This document shows positions 8,663 through 33,242 of a DNA stretch of 37,969 nucleotides, piece after piece. Positions within the stretch are counted from its first letter, which is position 1; each line of letters begins with the position of its first letter. The notes below the pieces were generated by a model. That model did not search any database. It worked only from the letters and a program-made list of their open reading frames with translations, and was not told the DNA's origin. The position numbers were made by a program, and so were the translations under genes. Source of the DNA: an uncultured Eubacterium sp. (GTDB lineage Bacteria; Bacillota; Clostridia; Lachnospirales; Lachnospiraceae); assembly GCA_947385775.1 (NCBI GenBank), contig CANDMI010000034.1, positions 1-37,969 on the forward strand, given 5' to 3'.

Positions 8663-9382
8663 ATGAAAAAAAGGGAGAGCGGAAGAAGAGTTGGGTATTT
8701 ATGCGCGTTGTTAGCGGGATTGGCGGTTGTTTTATTTTTAAATGTAAACCGTGTGCAGGCGGCGGAGAGCCTCGCGCTTTTTAGCTTTGAAAACGCGAAG
8801 GATCTGAAAGTGGGAAAGGGCGAAAAGATTGACCTTACAGGGGACGTAAAGGCGACGGGCTGGAAATCCAGCAACCCGAAGGTCGTAAAAGTTTCCAAAA
8901 AGGGCGTGGTAAGCGCGTTAAAGACGGGCAAGGCCGTAGTAAGCGCAAAAATCAACGGCAAAAAGAAAGAATGCCAGGTCACGGTGGCAAAGGACGCGGT
9001 AAAGGCAAGCAGTTATTTAAAAAAGGCATACCGGACATGGGAATGCCCGGAAAGCGGGAAAAAGGCTGAGATAAAATCCGGGAAATTTTTAGACGGGCTG
9101 AAAAATATCCTGTTGAATATTGAAAAGCAAAACGACGACGATGTGGAATATAAAAGCTGTAAGAAGATCACGGCGGTTGAAGAGGATGAATCCGGCGCGA
9201 CGGTTTATTTTGAAGCCACAGGCGTTTTGAATGGAAAGGAAAGGAGCTTTCCTTGCACCGCGGTTTTTACGGATGATTATGAATATGAAAAATACGATTA
9301 CGCTTTGATGATGCAGCCAGTCCTTTGGATTACGGATGAAGGAAAGCTGTTGTATGGAGCAGGGTCTTTCTGGTATGCGTAA
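8663..9382 (+). CDS. Secreted Big_2-domain protein
   Basis: A 239-residue exported protein. ATG 8663 follows AAAGGAG and TTAGGA. Residues 1-34 form a Sec signal peptide: basic start, a hydrophobic core VGYLCALLAGLAVVLFL, and AQAA-like cleavage at VQA/AES. Residues ~45-110 are one bacterial Ig-like (Big_2) domain with the typical WKSSNPKVVKVSKKGVVSALKTGK pattern split across its strands. The remaining ~125 residues are an unrecognised acidic domain with a C-terminal W-Y-A end. Its stop codon overlaps the next start (TAATG), so it is translationally coupled to the kinase downstream. It may present or contact ligands for that kinase's outer domain; that is inference from coupling only. It is the first gene after the structured leader. 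Confidence 0.8.
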   Translation: MKKRESGRRVGYLCALLAGLAVVLFLNVNRVQAAESLALFSFENAKDLKVGKGEKIDLTGDVKATGWKSSNPKVVKVSKKGVVSALKTGKAVVSAKINGKKKECQVTVAKDAVKASSYLKKAYRTWECPESGKKAEIKSGKFLDGLKNILLNIEKQNDDDVEYKSCKKITAVEEDESGATVYFEATGVLNGKERSFPCTAVFTDDYEYEKYDYALMMQPVLWITDEGKLLYGAGSFWYA

Positions 9383-11382
9383 TGGCTGGAAAAATATGTT
9401 TTTGGTGCTTTAAAAACAGAGGGAATCAGGCGGTATGCCCCCATTGCGGATATGCGCAGGCAAATGACGCACAGCAGGCATACCAGCTAAAGCCTGGCGC
9501 CGCGCTGCATAAGCGCTATGTGATCGGCGCAAGCATCGGCATCGGCGGGTTTGGCATTACCTATAAGGCGTTTGACGTGACCCTTCGCATGGTCGTGGCG
9601 GTGAAGGAATTTTACCCGGCGGGGCTTGTAAACCGGGCCGGGGGAGAAAAAAAGGTCGGCATTTTTTCCGGTGAGAAAAAAGCGGAGTTTCAAAAGCAGC
9701 TGGGCCGCTTTTTGGAAGAGGCAAGGAGTATGGCGCTTTTTTCAAAGGAACAGGACATTGTAAACGTCTATGACTTTTTTGAAGAAAACCAGACCGCTTA
9801 CATCATTATGGAATACGTAGACGCGCCGCTGTTAAAAGACGAGCTGAAAAAGCGGCGGTTTTCGCCGGAGGAAGCCGGCGGATATATGCTTGCGATTTTA
9901 GACGCGTTGGAAAAGGTGCATGGACATAATATCATACATAAGGACATCAGCCCGGACAATATCTTTTTGACGGGAAAGAACGAAGAATATTCGATTAAAT
10001 TGTTTGACTTTGGAGCCGCAAGGCTCCAGGGCTCGGAGCGTACGGAGGCGGTCGTGGTGAAGGCGGGCTATACGCCGCCGGAGCAGTATACGTCCACAGA
10101 AGTCCAAAGCTTTAGCATGGACATCTATGCGGCGGGGGCGGTCTTTTATGAAATGATGACCGGGGAAAAGCCGGTGGATTCCAGGGACCGGGTCGTAAAG
10201 GATGAGCTAAAGGAGTTAAAAGAGTTTGGCGTATCGGCGGATGAATATTTAGAGCGCATCATATTTAAAGCTATGGCCATCGAGCCGCGCCTGCGGTTTC
10301 AGACGGCTGGGGAATTTCGGGCGGCGCTGATACACCGTAAAAAGGTGCTGCTGCCGCAGGAGCAGCTGAAAAAAAACCGCAGGAAAAAGCGGATATTTGC
10401 GGCAACGCTCGCGTTTGTCGTTCTGCTTGCCGGAGGGACGCTTGTTTTAAATTCCACCGTGTTTTCCGGGCGCGGCAAAATCGATGTGGCGGGGCTTGAA
10501 AAAGAGGAGATTTCGGTCTGGATTTCCTCCGAGGACGCGCAGGAGGCGGACGCGCTTTCCAAAACGCTTTTAGAAAGCGCAAAACAGGTGTGCCCAAAGC
10601 TAGAGGTGGAAGCAAAGGTCATAGCAAGGGAGGACTATCCAAATGCCCTTTTGGAAGCGGCGGAAAAAGACGCTTTGCCGGATGTGTTTTGCGCCGACGG
10701 GCTTAGCGATTCCTTTTGGGAGGAGAATCCCTGCGCGGAGCTTTCCAAGCTGCTTCGTACGATGGAGCTTTCCGAATACCTGTATCTGGAAGAGCTGAAA
10801 AAAGAAGGGGGCGTGTACGCGCTTCCGACCGCGATGCAGACAGGGCTTTTATATGGAAGCGGCGCGAAAATAGAAGAAGACGCTCCAGACGCGGTGGAAT
10901 TAGACGACCTTGAAAAGTGGCGGCACGCCATAGGCTACGCGGATTCCGACGGCGTGTTTGAGCGCTTGAAAGATCAGGCGGATCGAACCGCCTGGATCGT
11001 CGGGGACTTGTCTGATATGGGAAAGGTGGAGGCCGTTACCGTGGAGGCCGTGCCGTCTGTGGATTTTACTGTTTTGCCAATCGTAGAGGAGCAAAAGCTT
11101 TTGGGCAGCATGGAGCGGTATTACGCGGTGAAAAAAAGTGAGGATGAAAATAAACAGGACGCTGGAATGGCGGTTTTATCCCTGCTTTTTAGTCAAGGGA
11201 TGCAAAGCGCGCTGTATATGGATAACCGGGAAGGACTGCCTTTAAACCGGGCGGTCTTAGACAATTATAAAGAAAATAAGCTTACGACTTACTTGAATTT
11301 TCTGCGCGATTATGACTTAGAGGAAGCGCAGCTTTTGGATGGCGAAGGGATTTGCGCGCAGATCAAAAGGAAGCTGGAATAA
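9382..11382 (+). CDS. Zinc-ribbon Ser/Thr kinase with solute-binding-protein-like ectodomain
   Basis: A 666-residue transmembrane Ser/Thr kinase. Residues 6-24 form a zinc ribbon (CFWC...CPHC). The kinase domain spans about 46-315: Gly loop GIGGFGITYKA, lysine K75 in VAVKE, catalytic loop HKDISPDN (His186, Asp188; a non-RD kinase), DFGAA at 209, and activation segment GYTPPEQY. A single membrane helix follows at ~338-357. The outer part (~370-666) reads like an ABC-type extracellular solute-binding protein: EISVWIS, a DYPNALLEAAEKDALPDVF segment, KEGGVYALPTA, and near the end GLPLNRAVLDNY. This replaces the usual PASTA sensor, so it likely senses a small molecule or peptide. It is coupled to the secreted protein upstream and precedes an FHA protein and EssC. 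Catalytic residues look intact. Confidence 0.88.
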   Translation: MAGKICFWCFKNRGNQAVCPHCGYAQANDAQQAYQLKPGAALHKRYVIGASIGIGGFGITYKAFDVTLRMVVAVKEFYPAGLVNRAGGEKKVGIFSGEKKAEFQKQLGRFLEEARSMALFSKEQDIVNVYDFFEENQTAYIIMEYVDAPLLKDELKKRRFSPEEAGGYMLAILDALEKVHGHNIIHKDISPDNIFLTGKNEEYSIKLFDFGAARLQGSERTEAVVVKAGYTPPEQYTSTEVQSFSMDIYAAGAVFYEMMTGEKPVDSRDRVVKDELKELKEFGVSADEYLERIIFKAMAIEPRLRFQTAGEFRAALIHRKKVLLPQEQLKKNRRKKRIFAATLAFVVLLAGGTLVLNSTVFSGRGKIDVAGLEKEEISVWISSEDAQEADALSKTLLESAKQVCPKLEVEAKVIAREDYPNALLEAAEKDALPDVFCADGLSDSFWEENPCAELSKLLRTMELSEYLYLEELKKEGGVYALPTAMQTGLLYGSGAKIEEDAPDAVELDDLEKWRHAIGYADSDGVFERLKDQADRTAWIVGDLSDMGKVEAVTVEAVPSVDFTVLPIVEEQKLLGSMERYYAVKKSEDENKQDAGMAVLSLLFSQGMQSALYMDNREGLPLNRAVLDNYKENKLTTYLNFLRDYDLEEAQLLDGEGICAQIKRKLE

Positions 11383-12372: not shown

Positions 12373-12570
12373 ATGGAAGACATAGCAACGCTTTTACTGT
12401 CGCAGCAGGCGATACTGATTTATGAGGTCATTCTTTTTGCGGCATTGACCGTGTCCATCCTATTGCTGTCTAAAAAAAGAAAGCTAAGAAAGCAGATCCA
12501 GTCGACGGCTATGGAGCGGCAGGTGAAAAAATCGCTGGACGATTCGCTGGTAAACCAAAGGCGGAGGTAA
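12373..12570 (+). CDS. Small single-pass membrane protein
   Basis: A 65-residue protein with RBS AAGGGG and ATG at 12373. A short N-terminal segment is followed by one hydrophobic helix (about residues 13-35, AILIYEVILFAALTVSILLL). A strongly basic tail (KKRKLRKQ ... NQRRR) then predicts N-out, C-in topology. It sits six bases before the EssC start and may be translationally coupled to it. Position and topology are like the small membrane subunit EssA of T7SSb systems, but there is no recognisable sequence similarity. Its role in the secretion channel is inference. Confidence 0.7.
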   Translation: MEDIATLLLSQQAILIYEVILFAALTVSILLLSKKRKLRKQIQSTAMERQVKKSLDDSLVNQRRR

Positions 12571-12575: not shown

Positions 12576-15500
12576 ATGAACGTGATATTGTCAGCATATT
12601 CAAAAGAGGCATTCCGGGAATACCAGCTTCCGTCTGTAAACAACGCGGATTTTACCATTACATTCAAAAGCGATTTTTTTCATCTGAAAAAAAACCGGAG
12701 CGTTTACTTAGAGGTCATGGACCATGTCTGGAGCTTTAAGCAGAGTAAGGACTACAGCATCCATAAGGACGCGTCTGTTTATGAAGGGCAGCCCCTGGCG
12801 GATAAGGATGTTTTGAATTTATACATAGACGGGGAAGAAAAGATCGTATTGATCGTAAAATACGTAAATTCCCTGTTCCACGCCTATGAAAAATTTTCCT
12901 TAGCGGGGATCAGCCAGATCACGATCGGGGAAAAGGCGGACAACGATATTTCCTATGACTATATGAAGCTGGTTTCCAGAAGCCATGCGGCGATCGTCAG
13001 GGAGGGGGCGGGGTTTAAGCTTGTAAACCACAGCTTAAACGGCACGTACGTAAACTCCTACCGTATGGATAAGGAGCGGCTGTTAAGCCCCGGGGCCTGC
13101 ATAGATATCATGGGGCTTCGACTGATTTATTTAGGGGACTGCCTTGCGGTGGATACGGCGGGAAGCCATGCCAAGGTCAACAGGCAAAAGCTGAAAGCGA
13201 TGCCAAAAAAACAGGCGGGCGCGTTTAAACAGGCCATGCCCGTATCCAGCGGAAAGAGCGTTTATCACCGTTCCCCGCGGACGTTTTATGAGATGACGCA
13301 GGGGGAGATTGAGATCGAAGGGCCGCCGCAGGCGGGGCAGGAAAAGCCCCAGTCGGTGTTTCTTACGATCGGGCCGTCCTTTACGATGACGCTTCCTATG
13401 ATCGCGGGCAGTATGTTAATGATGTCGCCCGGGTCGGGGGGAAATTCGATTTCGATGTATTCCGGCATCGTCATGTCGGTTTCTTCGGCGGTTTTGGGCG
13501 TGTTTTGGGCGCTGCAAAGCCTTCGGAGCCAGAAAAAGGAGGAGGCCGAAAAAAAACGCGCCCGGTTTGAGCGTTACAGCGAATATTTATTAGATAAAAC
13601 GGAAGAGATCAAAGGAAAGTATGAAAGCGCATCGCAGAAATTGTTTGAAATGTATCCCGACGCGGGCACAAGCTTAACCTATGATGAAAGCACGGGGCTG
13701 CTTTGGAGCCGCAACCCGTCCCATGAGGATTTCTTAGAGCACAGGCTTGGGATGGGCAACGCGCCGTTTCCGGTAAAGATCCAGACTCCGAAAGAAAAAT
13801 TTTCCGTATATAAAGACGAAATGGAGGATAAGCCGCGCTTTATAAAGGAAAATTACGAGACGCTTTACGATGTGCCGCTTTCGGTGGATCTGGCAAAGCA
13901 TAAGCTGATCGGCATTGTGGGCGGGCAGCAAAAGGCGGGGGCCATTGAGATCGCAAAGCTTTTGGCCGCGCAGATTGCGGCGAACAACTGCTATACGGAC
14001 GTAAAGATGGGATTTTTTTACGACAGCGGGATTTCCAATGAGGAAAAGGAGTGGGAGTTTGCAAAATGGCTTCCCCATGTGTGGTCGGAGGATAAAAAGA
14101 CAAGGTACTGCGCGTCCAACGCAGAGCAGGCCAGCGATGTGTTTTACGAGCTGACAAAGGTCTTTCGCGCCAGACTGGAAGAAGAGGACGGCTTTCCTTC
14201 AAGCGAAAAGCAGCTTCCAAAGCCGTATTACATCCTGTTTATTTCGGATATGGGCCTTTTGGACGGGGAGCTGATCGCGCGCTATATTATGGGCAGACAT
14301 GAAGCGGCGGGGCTTACGGCCTGTATTTTGACCAGCCGTTATGAGGAGCTTCCAAACGAATGCGATTTTATCATTGAAAATACAGCCAGGTACCAGGGGA
14401 TGTACGAAGTGGCCCTTGGGGAGGAAAAAGGGCAGAAAATCCAGTTTGACCAGATAGACGGCTTTCGGCTGGAGCGTTTTTCCAGGCATCTTGCGACCTT
14501 GCAGGTGCAGGAGATGGAAAAGGGCGGGGAGATCCCAAACGCGCTTTCCTTTTTTGAAATGCTTGGCGTATCCAGCCCAAAGGAGCTTCCGGTAAGAGAG
14601 CTTTGGGCGAAAAACAGGACTTATGACAATATCAAAGGCATGGTGGGCGAAAAAGCCGGCGGAGTGGCGTGCTATCTGGATGTGCATGAAAAATACCATG
14701 GCCCCCACGGGCTTGTGGCGGGCACGACTGGATCTGGAAAGTCTGAAACGCTCCAGACTTATATGCTGTCTTTGGCGGTGAACTACAGCCCGGACGACAT
14801 TGGATTTTTTATCATCGATTATAAGGGCGGCGGCATGGCAAACCTGTTTGACGGCCTGCCGCATATGGTCGGGCAGATTTCAAACCTGTCCGGGAACCAG
14901 GTAAAACGCGCGATGATCTCGATTAAGAGCGAAAACCGCAGGCGCCAGCGGGTCTTTACCGAGCATGGCGTAAACAACATCAATTTGTACACAAGGCTTT
15001 ATAAAAACGGGGAGGCCGCGCTTCCGGTGCCCCATCTGTTTATCATTATCGACGAGTTTGCGGAGCTAAAGCGGGAAGAGCCGGAATTTATGCGCGAGCT
15101 GATCTCTGTGGCGCAGGTCGGTCGAAGCCTCGGGGTGCATATGATCCTTGCGACCCAAAAGCCAAGCGGCACGGTGGACGACAATATCTGGTCGAACTCC
15201 AAGTTTCGGCTTTGTTTGCGAGTGCAGGATAAACAGGACAGCAACGACATGCTGCATAAGCCGGACGCCGCGTACATTACCCAGGCGGGGCGGTGCTATT
15301 TGCAGGTCGGAAACGACGAGGTGTACGAGCTGTTCCAGTCGGGCTACAGCGGCGCGGCGTACGAAGAAAACGTGGCTGTGGGCAGCACTGAGATCGCAAA
15401 GCTTTTGCAGCTAAACGGAAACGTGGAAATGACGGGCGCCTCCGCGAAGTTTTCCCAAAAACAAAAGGTGGAATATCTTTGGATGGAAAAGCTTGCCGAA

Positions 15501-17555
15501 TGCATGGAGCTTGCGCAAAAGGCGGTTAAGATCACCTTAGAGGAATGTAAGACAAAGCAACAGCTTGGGCGGCTGGTGCAGGCGATGTATAAGGCGATGT
15601 GGCATGAAAAGCTGGATTATCCGGTCAGCAGGTTTAACACCGACAGGCTTTGCGATTTTATTTTGGCATATAAAAGGCTGCTGGGCAGGCTGCCTGGCCC
15701 AAAAGCCATCCTAAACGAATTGGTGGAGCAGTCCGTTTCCGGAAAGATACGTATGCCCCAAAGGAAGGAAAAAACCCAGCTGGACGCGGTGAAAGAATAT
15801 CTGGCGCAGATGGCCGTAGAATGCGGCTATACCTACCATATGCAGTTATGGATGCCGGTGCTGCCAGACCATATTTATTTACAGGAATTTGGCGAGTTTG
15901 CGGAGCGCAGCTTTAAAGACGGCGCATGGCCAGCGCAGTCCGGGGCGTGGGGGCTTGAGATCGTGCTTGGAAAGATCGACGACCCGGAAAACCAAAACCA
16001 GATGCCGTTATTTTTCGATTTTGCAAAGACCGGGCATCTTGCGGTGTTTGGAAGCATCGTAAGCGGCAAGAGCACGCTGTTGCAGACCATGGCATACGCT
16101 TTGATCCACCGTTTTACGCCGGAGTTTGTCAATATTTACGCTTTGGATTTTAGCAGTAAAATGATGTCCGCTTTTGAAGACGCGCCCCATGTGGGCGGCG
16201 TGATGTACGAAAACGACCTGGATAAGATCAGCAAGTTTTTTAACATGATAGACGCTGTGTTACAGGAGCGAAAGACGCTTTTGCGGGGCGGCAATTACAG
16301 CCAGTATGTGCAAAAAAACGGCGTTACGATGCCAGCCATCGTTATATTTGTGGATAATTACGCTTCCTTTAAAGAAAAGACAAATGAAGACTATGAAGAG
16401 CTTATGATCGCGCTTTCCAAGGAGGGCGTAAGCCAGGGGATTTATCTGGTCGTGTCAGGCGGGGGCGTTGGCATGAACGATGTGACTTCGCGGCTTTGCG
16501 AAAACATCACGACGGCGCTTTGCTTGCAGCTCCAGGAGCGGTATGAATACATTGACCTTTTACATACGAATGTAATTGAGGTAATGCCGGAGGGCGGGAT
16601 AAAAGGAAGGGGCCTTACGGATTACGAGGGACGCATCCTGGAATTTCAGACCGCGCTTTCTCTAAAAGCGGAAAATGACTATGAGCGGATGGAGCTTATC
16701 CGGGCAAAATGTGAGGAAATGAAACGGGCATGGACGGGAAAGCGGGCAAAGCCGGTGCCGGAAATCCCGAAAAAACCAGTGTGGTCCCAGTTCCATATTT
16801 TGGAAGATTATCAAAAAATGCTCTTAACGCCGGACTTTTTGCCTGTAGGCTACGATATGGCAAACGCCCAGATCTACGGAATCCCGCTTCGCCAGACCTA
16901 CTGCTATACGGCATACGGCACGGCGCGCTCCGGAAAGACCAATTTTTTAAAGGTATGCTTGCAGGCCGCGTTGGAGAAAGAGGGAAAGGTGTGCGTGATC
17001 GACAACGAAGCGCATGACTTACAAAGCTATGCGTCATCCGGACTTGATTACGTGGAGGATGAAAAAGGGCTGTACGACTATTTTACAGAGCTTTTGCCTG
17101 TGTTTAAGGAACGAAATCAAAAGAAGCATGAAATGCAGGGAAGAGACTGCGAGGAAGAGGAGATCTTTGATGAAATGTCAAAATTTATACCGTATTTTAT
17201 CTTTATCGCGGATATCAAAGAGCTGGCCCTTTTGATCAACGGCTCCCAGTATGACATGAGGGGATTTTTTAAAAACATCCTGGAAAAGGGGAGTCTGCAC
17301 CACATTTATTTCTTCAGCGCCATTTCCTTAAAAGACCATTCCGACATTATGGGGGATGAGCTGTATGAAACCTTTACCGGATATAAAACGGGCATCCATT
17401 TTGGCGGGAATATGGCGGACAACCGGGTATTGAATTTTGAACACATTCCATACAATGAGCAGACAAAGCCGCTGCCGCCAGGCGTGGGATGCCTGCCGGA
17501 CTCGGGGGCTGGGACGGATACCGAAAGGGTTGTCCTGCCTATGGCTAGGAGGTAG
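12576..17555 (+). CDS. essC: EssC-like type VII secretion ATPase (FtsK/SpoIIIE)
   Basis: The 1659-residue motor of a type VIIb secretion system. GGAGG at 12563-12567 sets the ATG. The N-terminal ~200 residues are cytosolic and contain an FHA domain (~112-185; IGEKADNDIS, SRSHAAI, SLNGTYVN, with Glu replacing the usual Arg of the first motif). Two membrane helices lie at ~262-315, then a coiled linker and a domain typical of EssC. Three FtsK-type ATPase domains follow, with P-loops GTTGSGKS (716), GSIVSGKS (1159) and GTARSGKT (1448). Domain 1 has a full Walker B (FIIIDEF, Asp826); domains 2 and 3 have IFVDN and IFIAD, lacking the catalytic Glu, as expected for regulatory domains. It secretes WXG100-type dimers. 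It is embedded among kinases, FHA proteins and WXG100 genes, and length matches Firmicutes EssC/YukBA. Confidence 0.95.
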   Translation: MNVILSAYSKEAFREYQLPSVNNADFTITFKSDFFHLKKNRSVYLEVMDHVWSFKQSKDYSIHKDASVYEGQPLADKDVLNLYIDGEEKIVLIVKYVNSLFHAYEKFSLAGISQITIGEKADNDISYDYMKLVSRSHAAIVREGAGFKLVNHSLNGTYVNSYRMDKERLLSPGACIDIMGLRLIYLGDCLAVDTAGSHAKVNRQKLKAMPKKQAGAFKQAMPVSSGKSVYHRSPRTFYEMTQGEIEIEGPPQAGQEKPQSVFLTIGPSFTMTLPMIAGSMLMMSPGSGGNSISMYSGIVMSVSSAVLGVFWALQSLRSQKKEEAEKKRARFERYSEYLLDKTEEIKGKYESASQKLFEMYPDAGTSLTYDESTGLLWSRNPSHEDFLEHRLGMGNAPFPVKIQTPKEKFSVYKDEMEDKPRFIKENYETLYDVPLSVDLAKHKLIGIVGGQQKAGAIEIAKLLAAQIAANNCYTDVKMGFFYDSGISNEEKEWEFAKWLPHVWSEDKKTRYCASNAEQASDVFYELTKVFRARLEEEDGFPSSEKQLPKPYYILFISDMGLLDGELIARYIMGRHEAAGLTACILTSRYEELPNECDFIIENTARYQGMYEVALGEEKGQKIQFDQIDGFRLERFSRHLATLQVQEMEKGGEIPNALSFFEMLGVSSPKELPVRELWAKNRTYDNIKGMVGEKAGGVACYLDVHEKYHGPHGLVAGTTGSGKSETLQTYMLSLAVNYSPDDIGFFIIDYKGGGMANLFDGLPHMVGQISNLSGNQVKRAMISIKSENRRRQRVFTEHGVNNINLYTRLYKNGEAALPVPHLFIIIDEFAELKREEPEFMRELISVAQVGRSLGVHMILATQKPSGTVDDNIWSNSKFRLCLRVQDKQDSNDMLHKPDAAYITQAGRCYLQVGNDEVYELFQSGYSGAAYEENVAVGSTEIAKLLQLNGNVEMTGASAKFSQKQKVEYLWMEKLAECMELAQKAVKITLEECKTKQQLGRLVQAMYKAMWHEKLDYPVSRFNTDRLCDFILAYKRLLGRLPGPKAILNELVEQSVSGKIRMPQRKEKTQLDAVKEYLAQMAVECGYTYHMQLWMPVLPDHIYLQEFGEFAERSFKDGAWPAQSGAWGLEIVLGKIDDPENQNQMPLFFDFAKTGHLAVFGSIVSGKSTLLQTMAYALIHRFTPEFVNIYALDFSSKMMSAFEDAPHVGGVMYENDLDKISKFFNMIDAVLQERKTLLRGGNYSQYVQKNGVTMPAIVIFVDNYASFKEKTNEDYEELMIALSKEGVSQGIYLVVSGGGVGMNDVTSRLCENITTALCLQLQERYEYIDLLHTNVIEVMPEGGIKGRGLTDYEGRILEFQTALSLKAENDYERMELIRAKCEEMKRAWTGKRAKPVPEIPKKPVWSQFHILEDYQKMLLTPDFLPVGYDMANAQIYGIPLRQTYCYTAYGTARSGKTNFLKVCLQAALEKEGKVCVIDNEAHDLQSYASSGLDYVEDEKGLYDYFTELLPVFKERNQKKHEMQGRDCEEEEIFDEMSKFIPYFIFIADIKELALLINGSQYDMRGFFKNILEKGSLHHIYFFSAISLKDHSDIMGDELYETFTGYKTGIHFGGNMADNRVLNFEHIPYNEQTKPLPPGVGCLPDSGAGTDTERVVLPMARR

Positions 17556-17561: not shown

Positions 17562-18308
17562 TTGGTAAGTATGCTTGTTTACGGCCTTGGGCAAAAGGAG
17601 CGGGGGGAGCTTTCGCGGATGGTGAAAGACGCGTTTGCGTACCTTTCCGACGAAGAGCTAAAACTGCTTTGCCTTTCCGCTCCGGCTGCGCTTTTGGAAT
17701 ATTTAGAAAAAGCGCCGCTATTGGACCTTGCCTGCGTAGGCGTAAACGGGCAGGAGGAGATTACGCTTTTGCGCCGTATCCGAAGCCAGTATGCAAAAGC
17801 GGAGCTTTTTTTGATAGCGGACGCTGCGGTTTCACCGATGAAATATTTAACGCCGGATGTGCGGGCGGCTTCGCTGCTGCTTTCTCCGTATGAGCAGGAG
17901 CAGCTAAGGCAGGTGTTGCAGGAGTTTTTAAGAAGCTGCCTTGGGGAAAGGGAAAGCCTTGAAACGGAAAAGGAGTTTCTTGTAATTGAAAACCGCGAGG
18001 GAAAAACGCTGATCCCGTTACGGCAGATTTATTATATCGAAGTGCGGGAGCGCAAGATCTTTATCCGCGTGAAAAACAAAGAATACAGCAAGTACGATTC
18101 GATGGAGCATATGTTGGAGCAGCTTCCGGACTGGTTCGTGCGCTGCCACAGGAGCTTTGCGTTTAACGCGCAGCATTTAGAGCGGGTGAAGCTTTCCGAA
18201 AACGCGGTTTATTTAGAGCACGGCATGACGATCCCGTTATCAAGAAGCTATAAATCGGCAATGAAGGAGTATATGCAAAGGCAGGGCCATGGACGCGATA
18301 GGTTATAA
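17562..18308 (+). CDS. LytTR-family regulator with degenerate receiver
   Basis: A 248-residue transcription regulator. TTG 17562 is favoured because AGGAGG (17547-17552) lies nine bases before it; ATG 17571 would be 18 bases away. Residues ~137-238 are a LytTR DNA-binding domain (LRQIYYIEVRERKIFIRVKN, WFVRCHRSFAFN, then LSRSYKSAMKEYM). These proteins bind pairs of ~9-bp direct repeats. The first ~125 residues have receiver-like strand/helix spacing, but the phosphoacceptor position reads LACVGVNG instead of LDIxMPxxDG. The N-terminal acidic pair and the conserved KP lysine (here SP) are also missing. It is therefore probably not controlled by a histidine kinase; phosphorylation by the local Ser/Thr kinases or ligand binding are alternatives. 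It overlaps the next gene by 20 bases. Confidence 0.85.
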   Translation: MVSMLVYGLGQKERGELSRMVKDAFAYLSDEELKLLCLSAPAALLEYLEKAPLLDLACVGVNGQEEITLLRRIRSQYAKAELFLIADAAVSPMKYLTPDVRAASLLLSPYEQEQLRQVLQEFLRSCLGERESLETEKEFLVIENREGKTLIPLRQIYYIEVRERKIFIRVKNKEYSKYDSMEHMLEQLPDWFVRCHRSFAFNAQHLERVKLSENAVYLEHGMTIPLSRSYKSAMKEYMQRQGHGRDRL

Positions 18309-18958: not shown

Positions 18959-19207
18959 ATGATTTTAGTGGATGTAAGCATACCCGCGGTGGATGCGAAT
19001 TACGATTTTATGCTGGATGAAAATGTGCCGGTGGCGCAGGTCATGGAGGAGATCAGCGAGATGATCTCCAAAAAAGTAAAGGAAAAAAAGCCGGCGCGGA
19101 TCACGGACTTTGTGTTATATTCCATGGACACCGGAACGCTCTTAGATTACGGCGTAAGCCTTTATGCGAATGGCATCCGGGATGGGAGCCGCCTGATCTT
19201 TGTCTGA
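18959..19207 (+). CDS. esaB: EsaB/YukD ubiquitin-like T7SS protein
   Basis: An 82-residue ubiquitin-like protein of the YukD/EsaB family, a cytosolic accessory component of type VIIb secretion. AAAGGGGGG precedes the ATG. The fold is recognisable from sequence: a first strand (MILVDVSIPA), an acidic turn with YDFMLDENVPV, a helix (AQVMEEISEMISKKV), then the strand FVLYSMDTGTLLD and the family-typical end GVSLYANGIRDGSRLIFV (L-x-x-x-GI-x-DGD-x-L-x-L in relatives). Length matches the family (~80 aa). It follows the EspG-like gene closely and is the last gene before a 185-base gap, so it may close the transcription unit that includes EssC. Confidence 0.9.
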   Translation: MILVDVSIPAVDANYDFMLDENVPVAQVMEEISEMISKKVKEKKPARITDFVLYSMDTGTLLDYGVSLYANGIRDGSRLIFV

Positions 19208-19254: not shown

Positions 19255-19392
19255 ATTCAGGCGCTTTTCATAAAAAAACCTGCTATAGTTATCATCAGCA
19301 GGAGGGAACAAATAAAAAAGAAAAAACAGGAAATAAAATCAAGAAATAATATCAAAAAAACGGTACAACCGCAGGGTGATGGAGGATTGAAA

Positions 19393-19734
19393 ATGGAAGC
19401 TTCGATGCAGTTTAAGCAATTAAGGCGTCTGGCGAAAGAACTGGAGCAATGCGGGAGCTGCCTTTCATCCAATATCAGCAAACTGGACGCATTGTGTGAA
19501 AGCCGCTACAGCAAACCGTTGGAAAAAAATCTCCAGGCGCAAAGCGCTTTCTTAAAAAAACAGGCGGGCGCGTTAAAGGATATGGCGGCTGTATTGGAAC
19601 AGGCGGTTTACCTCTATGAAAGGACGGAGGAGTCCATCATACAGGAAGGGGAAGCGGACGTAAGAAAATACGACGAATCGCTTCGGGCAGTCAGCCTTTC
19701 CGATATGGCGCATGTCCCGGTAAAGTTAGTATAA
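19393..19734 (+). CDS. WXG100-superfamily-like helical protein without WxG
   Basis: A 113-residue protein from ATG 19393 with GGAGG at 19381-19385; an in-frame TTG at 19387 is too close to that site. It is almost wholly helical with two long amphipathic stretches and a break near residues 35-42, the hairpin layout of WXG100 proteins. The turn has no WxG (CESRYSKPL instead). The second helix carries YERTE, the Y-x-x-x-D/E export motif shared with its neighbours. Two Cys near the turn are unusual. It is the first gene of a seven-gene array of small helical proteins and could be the partner of one of the WXG100 proteins, or a Lap-like targeting factor. No signal peptide. Confidence 0.7.
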   Translation: MEASMQFKQLRRLAKELEQCGSCLSSNISKLDALCESRYSKPLEKNLQAQSAFLKKQAGALKDMAAVLEQAVYLYERTEESIIQEGEADVRKYDESLRAVSLSDMAHVPVKLV

Positions 19735-21942: not shown

Positions 21943-21974
21943 ACAATAGGACGCTTGTAAAAGCGTCTTATTGT
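21943..21974 (+). terminator. Strong 14-bp hairpin after the WXG100 array
   Basis: ACAATAGGACGCTT (21943-21956), loop GTAA, AAGCGTCTTATTGT (21961-21974); all 14 pairs form with a single G:T. There is no downstream T-run, so it may be a partial terminator or an mRNA-stabilising or processing element that uncouples the abundant WXG100 message from the membrane-protein message. Confidence 0.6.
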
Positions 21975-21996
21975 GATAGTTATGGAGAAACGTAAA

Positions 21997-23502: not shown

Positions 23503-23518
23503 AAAGCGGGAGATCAGG

Positions 23519-25399
23519 ATGGGGAAAACGAGAATCAATTATAAAGAAGAAAAAAACAATAGGAAAACAGGCGCGTTTTTGCTGCGCGTTTTTGCGCTTG
23601 CGCTTTGCTTTACCGGATTTATAGCATTTGGCGCGGGTAAAAAGGAAATCGCCGCGCAAGACGATATTCCAAAAGGGCCGCAGCTAAATGCCGACGCAAG
23701 CCAGGTTGCCTATACGAATGTCTATTTTGGCAGTTACCCGCAGGAGGAGGTAAAAGGCGCCGACCTGACCGCTAAGATCACCGGAGCGGATTATGACAGC
23801 TATGGGGACGCGGTCGTGGACGGCGTAAAATACCACAGGCTAAAATCCGGCCAGACCAACAACGACGAGCAGTTTGGAAACAGCGCGTACCGTTATTTTA
23901 AATGGCGGCGCATCCGCTGGCGCGTGCTTGCAAACGACGGCAAGACGCTGTATTTGATGGCGGATGGCGCGCTGGACTGCCAGAGCTATCATAATGTGGG
24001 CGAAGCCGTAACATGGGAGGACAGCTTTTTACGAAAATGGTTAAACGGCTCCTTTTACCGCACCGCGTTTAGCGAAAAAGAGCGGCAGGCCATCGTAAGC
24101 CAGGCGGTGGACAACCAGGAATACGTGACGGCGGGCGGCGCAGAAAACAGCGTGACCAATGACCTTATATACCTTTTGTCCCTGCCGGAGATGGGAAAGA
24201 CCGAGTATGGCTTTCCAGCGGCAGTCCAAAATGCGTCCCCATGCCGTCAGATGGCGGCGAGCGATTACGCCTATACGATGGGCGCGCGCTTAGGGGCGCA
24301 GGACGGCTCCGGGGATCAGTGTTGCTGGTGGTGGCTTAGAAGCCCTGCGGTGGAGGAAGAAAACGCGCTTCGCTATGCGGCTTTGATCAACCATACAGGC
24401 GCGTTTACGATGTATGGGCTTGTGGAAAATCCATACCGGGGGGTCGTGCCGGTCTTACATATCAGCATCGATTCTCATGCCTGGCTGGATTCGGACGACG
24501 GCACAAGCGGCTCTGGCGGCGGAGAATCCGCGAGCGTGCCTTTAACCGTGGGCGCGCCGAACATGCAGCGCAGCCAGAATGTGGCGGCGTTTGATGTGGA
24601 GGCAAAAGGCGGGCTTGCGGGAGAGTACGATTACCAGTGGTACTATGCGCCGTCGGAAACCGGCGGCGGCCATCCGATCAGCGAATCGGATTATAAGTCG
24701 ATCGTATGGCAGGGAAAGGCGCTTTATATTGACTTAAAAGCAGACGACGTGCCGGACGGGCTGTATTTATACTGCGCGGTAAACGATGGGCGCACAACCG
24801 TAGAAAGCAGCCGGATCTGGTTTTCGAAGCAAAAAAAGAGCCAGAAGATCACGTATCAAAAAGGCTCGATTGAAAACCAAAAGCTTGCCTACGGAGCTTC
24901 CTTTCATCTAAATGCAAAGTGCAACGGGGCGGGGGCTTCCATTTCTTATAAAAGCAGCGATCCGAAGGTGTTGTCGGTTACGAAAGACGGAAAGTTAAAG
25001 GCAAAAGGCTACGGCAAAGCGACCGTTACCATAACCGCTTCGGATTCGCCGGTGGACGAATATGGCAAAACCGAAAAAAAGCTGACTTTGACTGTCGTGC
25101 CAAAGCAGGTGAAGCTTAGCAAGGTTACAAAAGAAAAAAACAGCCAGGGCAGGGTCGAGGGCGTGTACGTCAAATGGAAAAAGGATTCTTCGATCGACGG
25201 CTGCCAGTACAATATCGCCTACAATAAAAGCTTTACGCACAGCACGAACGGGGAAAAGGAAGGCCAGGACAATTTTATGCGGCTGCGCTATCTGGATATC
25301 AGCAAGGACAAGCTCTATATCCGGGTGAGGGCTTATAAGAAATCAGGAAAAAAGACTTATTACGGAAAATGGAGCAAGAGCTATATCGTGTCACTGTAA
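23519..25399 (+). CDS. Secreted DUF6273 / Big_2 / Fn3-like surface protein
   Basis: A 626-residue exported protein. ATG 23519, with GGGAGATCAGG before it. A basic start and hydrophobic helix (~18-45) form the signal sequence. Residues ~60-317 are a DUF6273 domain: VYFGSYPQEEV, FKWRRIRWRVLA, MADGALDCQSYH, WEDSFLRKWLNGSFY and late CWWWLRSP. This is a lectin-like fold of unknown function common on Clostridia surface proteins. A Ser/Gly linker follows at 320-337. Then come an Ig-like segment, a Big_2-type repeat (ISYKSSDPKVLSVTKDGKLK, ~470-540), and a C-terminal Fn3-like domain with YVKWKKDSSIDGCQYNIAY and RVRAYKKSGKKTYYGKWS. No anchor is visible, so it may be released or attach via Big/Fn3 domains. 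It is separated from the FHA receptor gene by 16 bases. Confidence 0.85.
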   Translation: MGKTRINYKEEKNNRKTGAFLLRVFALALCFTGFIAFGAGKKEIAAQDDIPKGPQLNADASQVAYTNVYFGSYPQEEVKGADLTAKITGADYDSYGDAVVDGVKYHRLKSGQTNNDEQFGNSAYRYFKWRRIRWRVLANDGKTLYLMADGALDCQSYHNVGEAVTWEDSFLRKWLNGSFYRTAFSEKERQAIVSQAVDNQEYVTAGGAENSVTNDLIYLLSLPEMGKTEYGFPAAVQNASPCRQMAASDYAYTMGARLGAQDGSGDQCCWWWLRSPAVEEENALRYAALINHTGAFTMYGLVENPYRGVVPVLHISIDSHAWLDSDDGTSGSGGGESASVPLTVGAPNMQRSQNVAAFDVEAKGGLAGEYDYQWYYAPSETGGGHPISESDYKSIVWQGKALYIDLKADDVPDGLYLYCAVNDGRTTVESSRIWFSKQKKSQKITYQKGSIENQKLAYGASFHLNAKCNGAGASISYKSSDPKVLSVTKDGKLKAKGYGKATVTITASDSPVDEYGKTEKKLTLTVVPKQVKLSKVTKEKNSQGRVEGVYVKWKKDSSIDGCQYNIAYNKSFTHSTNGEKEGQDNFMRLRYLDISKDKLYIRVRAYKKSGKKTYYGKWSKSYIVSL

Positions 25400-25411: not shown

Positions 25412-25446
25412 TGCCAAATGATCAGCGTTTTGCCAGTCATTTGGCA
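25412..25446 (+). promoter_or_regulatory. Hairpin in the leader of the PP2C gene
   Basis: TGCCAAATG (25412-25420) and CATTTGGCA (25438-25446) are exact inverted repeats around a 17-base loop. The hairpin occupies the gap between the DUF6273 stop and the likely TTG start of the phosphatase. It also covers an alternative ATG at 25418. No T-run follows. Confidence 0.45.
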
Positions 25447-25474
25447 TCAGCCAAAACGAGACGGGGAGACTTTT

Positions 25475-26608
25475 TTGTTCGGACGAAAAAAAACGGGAAA
25501 AACGCCAAAAGCGGAAAAATCAATTAATACAGAAAAAACAGTCGAAATAGATAAAAATAAAATAGCTAAAATAGATAAAAAAGATAAAATAGATAAATCA
25601 GTCAAAAAAGAAGGATCAGAAAAATTAAATAAAAGATATCAAAAAAACAAAGATCCAGATTCGGATTTACAGTTGGATTATCAAAGTTTAGACAAAAATT
25701 TAGATCTTCTAGATCAAAGTGACGAAATTTCAGACAGCTCTTTTTATGAGCTGGAAACCGTGACCTTGGAGCTGCCCGGAAAGGAAGACGTCACAAAAGA
25801 CCTAGGCAGGCAAAAAAACGCGGCGCGATCACCCCAAAAAAAGCGCTGGCGCGTTAAGGTTGGCACATCCAGCGTGATCGGAAGCCGCAAGTCACAGCAG
25901 GATTCCGTGTTTGGATATGAGTCTAAGGGATGGGCGCTTGGCATAGTCTGTGACGGCATGGGCGGGCTTTGCGGCGGGGACGTCGCAAGCCGCGTCGCGC
26001 TGCAAAGCGTTGCGGACGCGTGGTTTGAAAAAAAAGACAGTATGCGGAATATCCCGGATTTTTTTCGAAGGGAAGCCGTCCTTGCAGACCAAAAGGTGTA
26101 TGGACAGACCTCCCCGGAGGGTGAAAGGCTAAACGCCGGCACCACGATCGTGGCGGCTTTGATACAGGAAAAGGGATTATACTGGCTTTCCGTCGGGGAC
26201 AGCAAGCTTTATTTTATCCGTGGAAAGGAAATCGTGTCGTTGAACGTGGAGCATAATTACCGGCTGGAGCTAAACGAGCGGCTGCGTCAGGGAAAGATGA
26301 CCGCTAAGGAATACGCCGCGGAGGAATACCGCGCCGAAGCGCTGACCAGCTATTTAGGCATCGGGGAGCTGACCAAAATGGACATTAACCAAAAAGCGTA
26401 CTCGCTAAAGGACGGGGATATCGTTTTACTGACAAGCGACGGGTTGTACCGCAGCCTGTTAGAAGAAGAGATCCTTTCCATCGTAAACGCCAACAGGCAC
26501 GATATGCAGCAGGCGGCGGACGCTTTGACCGCGGCGGTAAAAGGAAGAAAAAAGCAGGATAATACGTCGGTGGTCATCCTGCACTATATCATGGAGAATG
26601 CGTTATGA
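25475..26608 (+). CDS. PP2C-family Ser/Thr protein phosphatase
   Basis: A Mg/Mn-dependent phosphatase reversing the two kinases encoded nearby. TTG 25475 (377 aa) is preferred since GGGGAG lies six bases before it; ATG 25418 has no ribosome site and would add 19 residues not typical of the family. Residues 1-120 are a variable low-complexity extension rich in Lys, Asp and Ile (repeats of KIDK) with an acidic second half. The catalytic domain (~123-375) keeps the metal-binding and phosphate motifs: GSRKSQQDS, VCDGMGG, NAGTTIVAAL, SVGDSKLY, LLTSDGLYRSL and KQDNTSVVIL. No membrane helix. Its stop overlaps the following FHA gene start (ATGA), so the two are translationally coupled. Confidence 0.92.
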   Translation: MFGRKKTGKTPKAEKSINTEKTVEIDKNKIAKIDKKDKIDKSVKKEGSEKLNKRYQKNKDPDSDLQLDYQSLDKNLDLLDQSDEISDSSFYELETVTLELPGKEDVTKDLGRQKNAARSPQKKRWRVKVGTSSVIGSRKSQQDSVFGYESKGWALGIVCDGMGGLCGGDVASRVALQSVADAWFEKKDSMRNIPDFFRREAVLADQKVYGQTSPEGERLNAGTTIVAALIQEKGLYWLSVGDSKLYFIRGKEIVSLNVEHNYRLELNERLRQGKMTAKEYAAEEYRAEALTSYLGIGELTKMDINQKAYSLKDGDIVLLTSDGLYRSLLEEEILSIVNANRHDMQQAADALTAAVKGRKKQDNTSVVILHYIMENAL

Positions 26609-27243
26609 TTTTAAAAAGATGTAACCACGGACATTACTACGATGGCGAAAAATATGACAAATGCCCGGAATGCGGCGGGCTTTTGGGGATCAATCCGGGC
26701 TTTGGCGTATCTGGCGGGTTTGACGGGGATTATGCGGACGAGGATTCTGTGACCGTCGCTTTGCCCCGTAACCATGAGCCGCAAAGACAGAGCCACGGGC
26801 GCGGGATGGACGATGACAACGTGACGGTGACGCTGTCGCATAATCCGCCTGTGAAGCAGGGCTTTAAGCCGGTGGTGGGCTGGCTTGTCTGCATCCGGGG
26901 AAAGGATTTTGGCAGCGGCTTTTCGTTAAAGCTTGGGAAAAACCATATCGGAAGGTCGCCGGATATGGAAATCTGCTTGCAGGCGGATGAAAGCGTCGCG
27001 ATGAAAAACCATGCTGTTATCTATTATGTGCCAAAGCAGCGGCGCTTCGCCGTAGAGGCGGGGGTTTCCGGCAAGCGGCTTTTTCTAAACCGCAATGCGC
27101 TCATGCGCCCGGTCTGGATCAAGCAGCACGATATCTTAACGCTTGGAAACGTCAGTTTGATGTTCTTCCCCTGCTGCGGGGAGCATTTTAGCTGGGAAGA
27201 GCTGATACGAAAGCGCAGGGAGAGACAGCAGGGATCGGTGTAA
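26605..27243 (+). CDS. Zinc-ribbon FHA protein
   Basis: A 212-residue soluble protein. The N-terminus holds a Cys-rich module (CNHGHYY...CPECGG) resembling the zinc ribbons at the starts of the two kinases. A Gly/Asp linker with two similar acidic repeats (DEDSVTVALPRN and DDDNVTVTLSHN, each with a Thr that could be phosphorylated) follows. Residues ~100-185 form an FHA domain: IGRSPDMEICL and a weak MKNHAVIYY. The usual Ser-x-x-His and Asn-Gly-Thr residues are partly lost, so pThr affinity may be reduced. Coupled by ATGA overlap to the PP2C gene. The threonines between the Cys module and the FHA resemble the N-terminal pThr switch of GarA/Fha1-type proteins, which suggests a kinase substrate that folds back on its own FHA; inference. 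Confidence 0.85.
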   Translation: MILKRCNHGHYYDGEKYDKCPECGGLLGINPGFGVSGGFDGDYADEDSVTVALPRNHEPQRQSHGRGMDDDNVTVTLSHNPPVKQGFKPVVGWLVCIRGKDFGSGFSLKLGKNHIGRSPDMEICLQADESVAMKNHAVIYYVPKQRRFAVEAGVSGKRLFLNRNALMRPVWIKQHDILTLGNVSLMFFPCCGEHFSWEELIRKRRERQQGSV

Positions 27244-30869: not shown

Positions 30870-30896
30870 TTGGCATAAAAACGGGAGAGGGCAAAA

Positions 30897-33242
30897 ATGA
30901 CAAGATGTATGGGCTGCATGGCAGAAATGGCAGATGGCGAGCGGATATGCAGGCATTGCGGATACCAGAAAGGGACAGACGTAAAGGAAGCCTATTATCT
31001 GCTGCCTGGCACAGTATTGAAAAAAAAATATGTGGCGGGTCGGGTGCTCGGATACGGCGGATTTGGCGTAACCTATATCGGATGGGACCAGGTGTTGCAG
31101 CGCAAGGTGGCGATCAAAGAATACCTGCCCAGCGATTTTGCCACAAGAAGCTATGGCTCCAGAAGGGTGACGGTATTTTCCGGGGAAGCCGCGGAGCAGT
31201 TCCAGGCGGGGCTAAAGAGCTTTTTATTCGAAGCGAGGCGGCTTGCGAAGTTTAATTCCGTCGCAGAGACGGTGGACATTTATGACTGCTTTGAAGAAAA
31301 TGGGAGCGGTTATATCGTAATGGAATATTTAGACGGCATGACTGTAAAGGAAGCTTTGCGCAAACGCAGGCGGCTTTCCGTAAAACAGGCCAGGGCCATC
31401 GCTTTATCCGTGCTTAGGGGGCTTGAGCCAGTGCATAAGGCGGGCATCATCCATCGCGACATCGCGCCGGATAATATCTTTATCACAAAAACGGGCCGGA
31501 TAAAGATCTTAGATTTCGGCGCGGCCCGCTACGCCACCGCCGTGCAGTCCAAAAGCCTTTCCGTTATATTAAAGCCTGGCTTTGCGCCGGAGGAGCAGTA
31601 CCGCAGCAGAGGAGAGCAGGGGCCTTGGACGGACGTTTACGCGCTCGGCGCGACGGTTTACTGCATGATTACCGGGAAAAAACCGGAAGAATCCATTCAG
31701 CGGCTGGCGGACGACCATTTAAAGTCGCCGTCGGAACTGGGCATTGAAATTGACCCAAATATGGAAAACGCGATTATGAACAGCCTAAACGTGCGAAAGG
31801 AATACCGCATACAGGACGCGGCGACCTTTTACCGGGCGTTGTACGGCAAAGAGGACGTGGAGCGCGTCATCGAAAAAACAGACCCGAAAATCAGCTGGAA
31901 GCTCCCGTTATGGATGAAATGCGCAACGGCATTTGCCTGTGCGTTAGTCTGCGTCTGTATCGGGCTGTTTGCCACCGGGAATTTGAATTTTACAAAAAAA
32001 GAGATCACAGGCGCGGACGGGCTTGCGGCGCTAAGCGGCACGCAGCGGTATGTGCCGAACGTATCCGGCATGAGCTATGAGCAAGCGGAGGGATTATTAA
32101 AGGAAAAAGATTTAAACATCGTAATCAGTGGGATGAATTACAGCGAAAGCATATCCAAAAATAAGATTTTAAGCCAGACCCCAAGGGACGGCTCCGTCGC
32201 CGAAGCCAAAGACCTGATCAAGGTCATTATGAGCGGCGGGAAGGAAGAGATCATGATGCCGGATCTATCCGGCATGACAAGGGAAGAAGCGGTACAGATG
32301 ATAGCAAGTCAAAATCTTTTGTTCAGCGAGGAAAAATCGACAGAGGAATATAGCGACGTAGTGCAAAAAGGCAGGGTGATCGCGCAAAGCATCCAAGCGG
32401 AAGAGCGAACTGCCGTACAGACGGAAGTTTTTATCACGGTTTCCCTTGGAAGCTTAAACGAGGAAACCGCGTTACTTAAAGCGCCGGATTTAACCGGCAT
32501 GACAAAGGAAGAAGCGATTCGAAAATTAGGGGAGCTTAAAGAGCAGGCGGGATTTACCTATTCTTTGGGCGAAGTGAAAAATAAATACAGCAAAACGGTG
32601 GAAAAAGGCCAGATCATCAGCCAAAGTCCAAAAGCCGGGGAGTCGGCGCGCACCAATGTGCCGATCCGCATCGTCATAAGCAAAGGCCCGGAGCTTGTGC
32701 AGATACCAGAGCTTTTATACATGCAAAAAGATCAGGCAGTCCAAAAGCTGCAAAAAGCAGGGCTAAGCGTGCAGCTTGAAACCGCATACAGCAATCAGGC
32801 GGCGGCAGGGCTTGTCATAGAACAAAGCGTGGAAGCCGGAAAGAAGGTCGCAAAAGGCAGCGGCGTGACGCTTGTGATCAGCCTTGGAAAGCAGCCGGTG
32901 CAAAACGGCGGCGGAAGTACCGGGGCTGGAACTGGGAGTGGAAGTACCGGGACTGGAAATGCTGGAAGTGGGAGCGGCGGAAATAGCGGGACTGGAAATG
33001 CCGGAAGTGGAAGCGGAAGTAACGGAAGCGGCGTGCAGGAGCCGTCTGGCGGGAATGCCGGAAGTGGAAGCGGCGGAAGTAACGGAGCGGGAAGCGGCGT
33101 GCAGGAGCCGTCTGGCGGGAATGCTGGAAATGGAAGCGGCGCACAGGCCCCGTCCGGCGCGGGAAATAACGGAGATGCCGGAAGCGGCGGAGATGGCGAT
33201 AAGGCGATCATGCCGGATGGCGGAAGCTTTGTGGTGGAATAG
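30897..33242 (+). CDS. Zinc-ribbon PASTA Ser/Thr kinase
   Basis: A 781-residue transmembrane Ser/Thr kinase. RBS GGGAGAGGG before the ATG. A zinc ribbon (CMGC...CRHCGYQ) occupies residues 4-23. The kinase domain (~40-305) has GYGGFGVTYIG, Lys74 in VAIKEY, the loop HRDIAPDN (His186, Asp188; an RD kinase), DFGAAR at ~206 and PGFAPEEQY. A membrane helix (~336-360) is followed by four PASTA repeats (~385-665; e.g. PDLSGMTREEAV, PDLTGMTKEEAI), which in PrkC/PknB bind peptidoglycan fragments or lipid II. The last ~110 residues are Gly/Ser/Asn-rich, unusual for PknB-type kinases, perhaps a spacer through the wall. Catalytic residues intact. It shares the HxD numbering with the SBP-type kinase upstream, so they are probably diverged paralogues. 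Confidence 0.93.
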   Translation: MTRCMGCMAEMADGERICRHCGYQKGTDVKEAYYLLPGTVLKKKYVAGRVLGYGGFGVTYIGWDQVLQRKVAIKEYLPSDFATRSYGSRRVTVFSGEAAEQFQAGLKSFLFEARRLAKFNSVAETVDIYDCFEENGSGYIVMEYLDGMTVKEALRKRRRLSVKQARAIALSVLRGLEPVHKAGIIHRDIAPDNIFITKTGRIKILDFGAARYATAVQSKSLSVILKPGFAPEEQYRSRGEQGPWTDVYALGATVYCMITGKKPEESIQRLADDHLKSPSELGIEIDPNMENAIMNSLNVRKEYRIQDAATFYRALYGKEDVERVIEKTDPKISWKLPLWMKCATAFACALVCVCIGLFATGNLNFTKKEITGADGLAALSGTQRYVPNVSGMSYEQAEGLLKEKDLNIVISGMNYSESISKNKILSQTPRDGSVAEAKDLIKVIMSGGKEEIMMPDLSGMTREEAVQMIASQNLLFSEEKSTEEYSDVVQKGRVIAQSIQAEERTAVQTEVFITVSLGSLNEETALLKAPDLTGMTKEEAIRKLGELKEQAGFTYSLGEVKNKYSKTVEKGQIISQSPKAGESARTNVPIRIVISKGPELVQIPELLYMQKDQAVQKLQKAGLSVQLETAYSNQAAAGLVIEQSVEAGKKVAKGSGVTLVISLGKQPVQNGGGSTGAGTGSGSTGTGNAGSGSGGNSGTGNAGSGSGSNGSGVQEPSGGNAGSGSGGSNGAGSGVQEPSGGNAGNGSGAQAPSGAGNNGDAGSGGDGDKAIMPDGGSFVVE

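Follow-up and report, generated by a model that had tools for sequence, protein, structure and literature searches.

Gene content of the locus

The stretch analysed here (the window) is the entire contig C34 of an uncultured Eubacterium sp., 37,969 bases long, from a genome of 3.98 Mb in 152 contigs that is 96% complete. Its main genes, at positions 8522-37967, all lie on the + strand with intergenic gaps of -44 to 224 nt, and they encode a type VII secretion system (T7SS) built around an EssC-type ATPase, together with kinase, phosphatase and FHA genes. Genes were assigned with Pfam and NCBIfam profiles. Profiles and strand agreed with an earlier, sequence-only reading of this DNA, which had described a same-strand series with EssC, EsaB, two zinc-ribbon transmembrane (TM) Ser/Thr kinases, a PP2C phosphatase and four FHA proteins. 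That reading had also counted seven WXG100 proteins; six small proteins do carry a W-x-G motif, four of them scoring above the Pfam cut-off and two below, but the seventh (19387-19734) lacks the motif and gave weak EspC/PPE matches. It had overlooked the 65-aa TM peptide, the LytTR regulator, the EspG-fold protein, the trypsin-like ectodomain, the DUF6382 domain, and the solute-binding-protein (SBP)-like and PASTA ectodomains of the kinases.

Types T7SSc to T7SSj were defined by Garrett, Higginson and Palmer (2024; PMC11217815), with kinases, phosphatases and FHA proteins among them; what we say of that paper and of PMC9600267 refers to the accessible parts of their texts. In these terms, we read the locus, with about even confidence, as a T7SS with a T7SSi-like core and a five-WXG100 cassette, without EssB, that bears an accessory envelope-signalling module.

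Table 1. Features of the gene run in the window.
Position	Strand	Feature	Basis and remarks
8522..9382	+	Secreted/membrane protein, Big_2-like domain	Pfam Big-like/Big_2; hydrophobic segment 57-79; opens the run; start likelier at 8663
9382..11382	+	Ser/Thr kinase 1: zinc ribbon, kinase domain, one TM, SBP-like ectodomain	Pkinase 132.6 bits
11398..12351	+	DUF6382 pseudokinase-like domain (DUF6382 part 11398-11967) with C-terminal FHA, TseJ-like	
12373..12570	+	65-aa single-TM peptide just 5' of EssC	Profile match, E 2.5e-8
12576..17555	+	EssC: FHA, membrane part, FtsK/SpoIIIE ATPase domains	TIGR03928 1083 bits; Pfam
17562..18308	+	LytTR-type DNA-binding regulator, TsiN-like	Pfam LytTR 71.8 bits
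18289..18921	+	EspG-fold chaperone, TsiG-like	Fold match
18959..19207	+	EsaB/YukD/TsxB ubiquitin-like protein	Pfam YukD 42.1 bits, above cut-off
19387..19734	+	Helical-hairpin-like protein without W-x-G, heads cassette	Weak EspC/PPE matches
19750..20052	+	WXG100 W1	Pfam above cut-off; order
20117..20425	+	Additional WXG100, likely W4 duplicate	Pfam above cut-off; 78/100 residues identical
20458..20775	+	WXG100 W2	Pfam 21.6 bits, below cut-off, E 0.00027; order
20792..21103	+	WXG100 W3	Pfam 19.3 bits, below cut-off, E 0.0013; order
21190..21492	+	WXG100 W4	Pfam above cut-off
21608..21925	+	WXG100 W5	Pfam above cut-off
21973..23502	+	Trypsin-like ectodomain, TM (344-374), cytoplasmic FHA	Trypsin_2 and FHA profiles; hydropathy
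23459..25399	+	Gene of the run	Pfam match; hydrophobic segment 37-60
25418..26608	+	PP2C/PPM phosphatase, TseF-like	Pfam above cut-off
26605..27243	+	Zinc-ribbon-like protein with degenerate FHA	FHA 27.8 bits
27258..30869	+	Large protein, weak CAP, Flg_new and Big domains	Pfam; signal-like N-terminus judged by eye
30897..33242	+	Ser/Thr kinase 2: zinc ribbon, kinase domain, TM, four PASTA stretches	Pkinase 117.2 bits, PASTA 177 bits
33279..37967	+	BspA-type leucine-rich-repeat (LRR) surface protein with Big_2, truncated at contig end	Pfam

Upstream of the run lie PDDEXK nuclease-type proteins (1056-2405 and 6442-8244) and a topoisomerase with a Toprim domain (3365-5599, minus strand).

A conserved secretion core without EssB

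The ATPase matched the NCBIfam model T7_EssCb_Firm (TIGR03928) well above its cut-off of 778 bits, and Pfam placed an FHA domain and two FtsK_SpoIIIE stretches in it. The EspG fold took ranks 1-14 in a fold comparison of the 18289-18921 protein, and Pfam gave no match to a receiver domain in the LytTR regulator. The 65-aa peptide resembled the N-terminus of a TM-FHA protein found at the same place in related loci (hmmsearch, profile of 44 proteins).

Scanning genome contigs with a profile of 19 aligned EssC sequences yielded 338 relatives, and the best 80 of these 338 make up the 80-locus set, to which counts of loci refer below unless another sample is named. Loci carry L-numbers and genomes G-numbers. 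By title the members are mostly Lachnospiraceae and other Clostridia, mostly metagenome-assembled, with one title naming Bacteroidales and a few only 'bacterium'. Clostridium sp. chh4-2 contributes two loci (L186, L191) on two scaffolds, with marker genes agreeing in order and length. EsaB followed EssC in all 71 loci having 2.5 kb downstream, and 60 of these showed the order EssC, LytTR, a 210-aa EspG family and EsaB. At least five WXG100 genes were present in 57 of the 62 loci having 6 kb downstream. Of the 60 loci in which at least five followed EssC, 37 repeat the W1-W5 series of the window when each protein is assigned by its best match; departures are confined to the first slot or two in 21 and are of another kind in 2. 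The window's cassette has two extras, a probable W4 duplicate and the hairpin-like protein in front, whose family occupies the same place in 8 loci, the window included.

Three EssC-neighbour families that are absent from the window occur in 35, 33 and 15 loci (examples L179 20896-22263, L170 22081-22392 and L202 21512-23254). In the one example scanned per family we found a weak WXG100 match at the start (L179), DUF4176 (L170) and an Mbeg1-like protein whose C-terminus is helical (L202). These families are candidate substrates and partners of the system.

The window's EssC was also searched in 250 genomes from its family, and the better places were sorted by eye. The neighbourhoods fetched comprised group A (the window and 21 window-like places), 3 intermediates and 22 others (group B); one fragment (G006:C146) was dropped, many further EssC-like places were left unfetched, and neighbourhood lengths differ with contig ends. 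No match to EssB/YukC (PF10140) was obtained in the window's genome, in any of the 16 group-A genomes or in the one intermediate genome searched. The family scored above cut-off in 8 of the 38 genomes searched, that is, in 8 of the 21 outside group A and the intermediate. EsaA (TIGR03929) was above cut-off in none of 24 genomes, YukC-bearing ones included; weaker matches occurred in 10 of the 24, and the two in the window's genome both lie on another contig.

A quick tree of EssC, which included ten 80-set loci of the window's clade, carried composition and long-branch warnings, and only its broad grouping was used. Four genomes of another family in the same order (G404, G325, G335 and G425) formed a clade beside that of the window, and both stood apart from the YukC-bearing group. 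These four carry EssC-LytTR-EspG-EsaB, with a gene encoding a C-terminal TM upstream.

Kinase and phosphatase genes beside EssC

Both kinases of the window scored above the Pfam cut-off, and each has an N-terminal CxxC...CxxC and one hydrophobic segment (337-363 or 338-366). The catalytic residues K, D, N and D are kept in both, and K+D+D in 50 of 60 kinases of the 80-locus set. For the PP2C phosphatase, four of the Asp columns could be located in the alignment, and these held Asp in the window and in every ungapped row (n=42); one further Asp column was not placeable. Judged by these residues, the writers and the eraser appear active. Against the PDB, a profile of the kinase 1 ectodomain found ABC solute-binding proteins, with E 1.7e-5 for the best, and SBP_bac_8 was above cut-off in 2 of 6 scanned proteins, the window's own copy lying below. 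Elsewhere in the window's genome (C105, L123 6994-10041), a kinase domain is fused to an AAA/NB-ARC-like NTPase in a protein of 1015 aa.

The sequence-only reading had placed kinases beside the secretion motor and proposed a comparison with relatives, and the linkage was borne out: 23 of 83 kinase matches in the 16 group-A genomes lay within 20 kb of EssC, compared with 1.01 expected from rounded genome sizes in these chosen clade genomes. At least one kinase was found near EssC in 14 of the 16. The linkage is therefore not due to chance. That reading had also known of no standard T7SSb locus so equipped. This holds for the eight EssC neighbourhoods of YukC-bearing genomes of the same family, in which no kinase, PP2C or FHA gene was detected by profile, but T7SSe and T7SSj systems with such genes had been published in 2024 (PMC11217815). 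Each YukC-bearing genome was seen through one EssC neighbourhood (G056 holds another, left unfetched, and YukC and EssC lie on different contigs in G060), and the FHA profile used missed the EssC of the YukC-bearing loci.

FHA domains and the receptor behind the cassette

The four FHA proteins of the window scored 60.3, 39.8, 64.4 and 27.8 bits, all above the Pfam cut-off of 20.7 bits. We scored the positions that we take to form the phosphothreonine site (Arg, Ser/Thr, His and Asn) in those domains that had a profile match. In the window, Arg is replaced by Glu in EssC and by Lys in the trypsin-like receptor, Ser by Gly in the DUF6382-FHA protein, and Ser by Ala and Asn by Lys in the zinc-ribbon protein. 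The EssC site was complete in 5 of 79 clade members of the 80-locus set. Outside the clade it was complete in 5 of 12 rows (G002, G012, G237, G017 and G065) and incomplete in 7, so the scoring is able to detect intact sites. Completeness varied among the other FHA proteins: it was found in 2 of 24 trypsin-FHA proteins, 15 of which have Lys at the Arg position, in none of 10 DUF6382-FHA proteins, in 2 of 10 mid-sized and 13 of 50 small FHA proteins, and in 23 of 28 large FHA proteins without a trypsin match.

The trypsin-like domain of the window's receptor has Ser and Glu at the catalytic His and Ser positions, which rules out an active protease. The H-D-S triad was present in 1 of 21 trypsin-like copies in the slot after EssC (80-locus set) and in 8 of 17 other copies, a group that includes the window's copy and two fragments. 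Other FHA proteins carry a vWA ectodomain, upstream of EssC in L161 (2512-4299, by Pfam) and after the cassette in L186 (19029-20570, by eye). The ectodomain of the FHA receptor thus varies, being trypsin-like in the window and vWA in others.

DUF6382 resembles a pseudokinase and occurs at Tad loci

In structure comparison the DUF6382 model matched kinases. The region of its alignment taken by eye as the catalytic loop showed DFG in 0 of 28 rows and H-x-D in 1 of 28; three of these rows (L139, L140 and L178) look FHA-FHA and were excluded from the structure alignment. Sequence and model together make DUF6382 look like a pseudokinase. Its sequence profile had a single match in the PDB, to a kinase, with an E of 0.64. 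In the structure comparison, EssB chains were not among the 50 PDB matches listed. YukC compared with a kinase profile gave a Prob of 26.7, below the score of DUF6382.

DUF6382 was present in all 31 family genomes searched, 18 of which are EssC-negative; these 18 were taken from the 147 genomes without an EssC match among the 250, some of them incomplete, and 16 of their DUF6382 loci were fetched. No kinase or PP2C gene was found in these 16. The window's own genome has two Tad-type loci with DUF6382, on C48 (L119 7039-18027, L120 54-4427) and C19 (L121 2203-10580), and the C48 locus also carries PP2C, kinase and VWA-FHA genes, without EssC.

In E. coli, the pseudokinase YukC binds the FHA region of YukB; the authors hold this contact to be independent of phosphorylation, point out that the phosphate-binding residues are not conserved, and knew of no typical kinase of this kind there (PMC9600267). 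A tentative proposal, which we consider possible but doubtful, is that DUF6382 is an EssB-related pseudokinase adaptor that in these Clostridia is common to Tad pili and type VII secretion. Through its fusion to FHA it would link receptor kinases and PP2C with the motor ATPase, CpaF or EssC, and EssB would be one branch of a wider pseudokinase docking family for envelope machines.

Favoured interpretation and alternatives

The accessory module most likely senses the envelope and may act on secretion. Two receptor kinases would sense the outside, one through its solute-binding-like ectodomain and the other through PASTA repeats, and would phosphorylate proteins of the locus, with PP2C resetting the signal. 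The likeliest reader would be a membrane receptor consisting of ectodomain, TM and cytoplasmic FHA domain, because large FHA proteins of relatives that lack a recognisable trypsin domain mostly keep the phosphothreonine site. By analogy with the YukB-YukC contact, the FHA domain of EssC, which lacks the Arg in most of the clade, probably docks without phosphate, as in T7SSb; its partner in the window may be the DUF6382 pseudokinase encoded next door. EspG would handle substrate delivery and LytTR transcription. The kinases and PP2C are intact and relatives have complete FHA sites, which points to a real phospho-signal at the envelope.

Several observations weigh against this interpretation. 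The sequence-only reading had spoken of a complete phosphothreonine circuit, which overstates the case: none of the four FHA domains in the window keeps Arg, Ser, His and Asn together, and the EssC site is rarely complete in the clade. The reader step is therefore uncertain in the window, where the trypsin-like receptor also departs from the large FHA proteins in having Lys for Arg. The accessory genes are not constant. Kinase, PP2C and a separate FHA protein occurred together in only 16 of 42 well-covered loci, and 8 of the 42 had neither kinase nor PP2C; no kinase or PP2C gene was found near the EssC core of G404, G325, G335 and G425. These loci and genomes show that the machine does not depend on the module. 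LytTR and EspG were missing from 11 of the 71 loci having 2.5 kb downstream. DUF6382 was detected by profile in only 9 of 80 loci and is therefore no general EssC partner in the clade, and Tad-pilus markers adjoin it in 15 of the 16 inspected loci of EssC-negative genomes. No candidate for a toxin effector was noticed in the window, and it may be the run's exported surface genes that the kinases regulate.

These observations bear on an alternative that we consider rather unlikely, namely that the genes form a general envelope-stress kit lying near surface or export loci, which controls surface-protein or wall genes, or only T7SS transcription, and not the motor. Big, CAP and LRR proteins within the same run, a LytTR regulator in the core and the loci devoid of kinase and PP2C would fit such a kit. 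The sequence-only reading held that wide occurrence of these genes away from EssC would speak against gating of secretion by the circuit, and this was found in part: DUF6382 was present in all 18 EssC-negative genomes tried, and the same kit, with DUF6382, PP2C, kinase and FHA, stands in a Tad-type locus of the window's own genome. However, kinases are 23-fold enriched at EssC, the 16 DUF6382 loci of EssC-negative genomes lacked kinase and PP2C, and the kit was not found in the eight EssC neighbourhoods of YukC-bearing genomes.

The locus could also be a plain T7SSe as published, in which kinase, PP2C and DUF6382-FHA gate secretion through phosphothreonine recognition, the FHA domain of EssC included. 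We judge this improbable. A TM kinase, a PPM phosphatase, a DUF6382-FHA protein without TM, EsaB, several WXG100 proteins and a short TM peptide, all of them listed for T7SSe, are present in the window, but the ATPase has lost the phosphothreonine site, the LytTR and EspG of the core belong to T7SSi and fall outside the accessible T7SSe description, and TseI with its C-terminal TM was not found by a hydropathy scan. The reverse position, that the FHA and pseudokinase parts serve for phospho-independent architectural docking of the EssB/EssC kind and that the kinases are coincidental neighbours, seems to us more improbable still. The degenerate FHA sites of the window, the pseudokinase-like DUF6382 and the YukB-YukC contact in E. 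coli, where no typical kinase was known to the authors (PMC9600267), agree with it, and it is opposed by the complete sites in most large FHA proteins and by the many loci accompanied by intact kinases and PP2C.

Our literature searches found no precedent for the composite core or its occurrence across Lachnospiraceae-type genomes, for assigning an EspG fold and a pseudokinase, or for the link to Tad, which to that extent are new. Looking for T7SS with EssC in Lachnospiraceae turned up one metagenome paper. Under the favoured reading of a T7SSi-like core with an envelope-signalling module, the range of a core reported from one genus is extended to a large number of Lachnospiraceae-type genomes; gut, cecum or rumen samples appear in several of their titles and strains in a few. 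The core is joined to a kinase/phosphatase kit, and precise binding tests could show whether phosphorylation gates export. A fold is also suggested for DUF6382, which the literature searched mentions without one, and the domain is linked to Tad pili.

Comparison with known systems

Control of secretion by phosphothreonine and the parallel with type VI secretion (T6SS), both put forward in the sequence-only reading, are already in print, having been proposed in 2024 (PMC11217815). According to the same source, T7SSe and T7SSj have a kinase, a phosphatase and an FHA protein, and T7SSc and T7SSf part of this kit. It also cites IreK of E. faecalis for control of T7SS transcription; our literature search with strict terms found no paper joining IreK with T7SS.

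With T7SSb (yuk/ess) the window shares the EssC, EsaB and WXG100 families, but its genome has no EssB/YukC match, and the kinases, PP2C and FHA proteins are additional. A plain T7SSb was ruled out, YukC being absent from all 16 group-A genomes searched. The Tad pilus loci of the same family have in common with the window a DUF6382-FHA gene, to which one locus of the window's own genome adds PP2C, kinase and VWA-FHA; in place of EssC they have the pilus motor CpaF, and the 16 loci from other genomes lack kinase and PP2C.

In the PpkA/PppA/Fha arrangement of T6SS, kinase, PP2C and FHA genes lie beside the secretion motor. The window shares this arrangement of genes, but the machine is unrelated and its FHA sites are degenerate.

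T7SSi, described from Vallitalea only, combines an FHA-bearing ATPase whose phosphothreonine motifs are poor with an EsaB-like protein, an EspG-like chaperone, a LytR-like regulator and the kinase-like TsiM (PMC11217815). Vallitalea belongs to the order Lachnospirales. All of these apart from TsiM, which has a C-terminal TM and was not found in the window, are common to the two. The WXG100 genes of T7SSi are scattered, whereas five stand in near-fixed order in the window's clade, and the accessible T7SSi description contains no PP2C or separate FHA protein, both of which the window has. The upstream gene of the four other-family genomes may, as a guess, be TsiM; phmmer matched it to nothing in clade A, and its sole other match was a kinase protein of G262 (E 2.5e-16). 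A relationship of this candidate to EssB or DUF6382 was not supported (hhalign Prob 0.13 and 1.01).

With T7SSe the window shares the features listed above, from the TM kinase to the short TM peptide. Of the short single-TM proteins TseH and TseK, one candidate, the 65-aa peptide, was found, and a second was not systematically sought. For TseI (Ig-like, with signal peptide and C-terminal TM), large Big-domain proteins are present in a run that is cut by the contig end. The ATPase of T7SSe keeps a well-conserved phosphothreonine site (PMC11217815), which is lost in most of the window's clade, where LytTR and EspG are core genes. A textbook T7SSe was ruled out on these grounds. Because the core fits the T7SSi list and the kit fits T7SSe, yet the ATPase of T7SSe keeps its phosphothreonine site, we regard the locus as a variant in which a T7SSe-like kit is attached to a T7SSi-like core, a label set by gene content rather than by comparison with reference ATPases.

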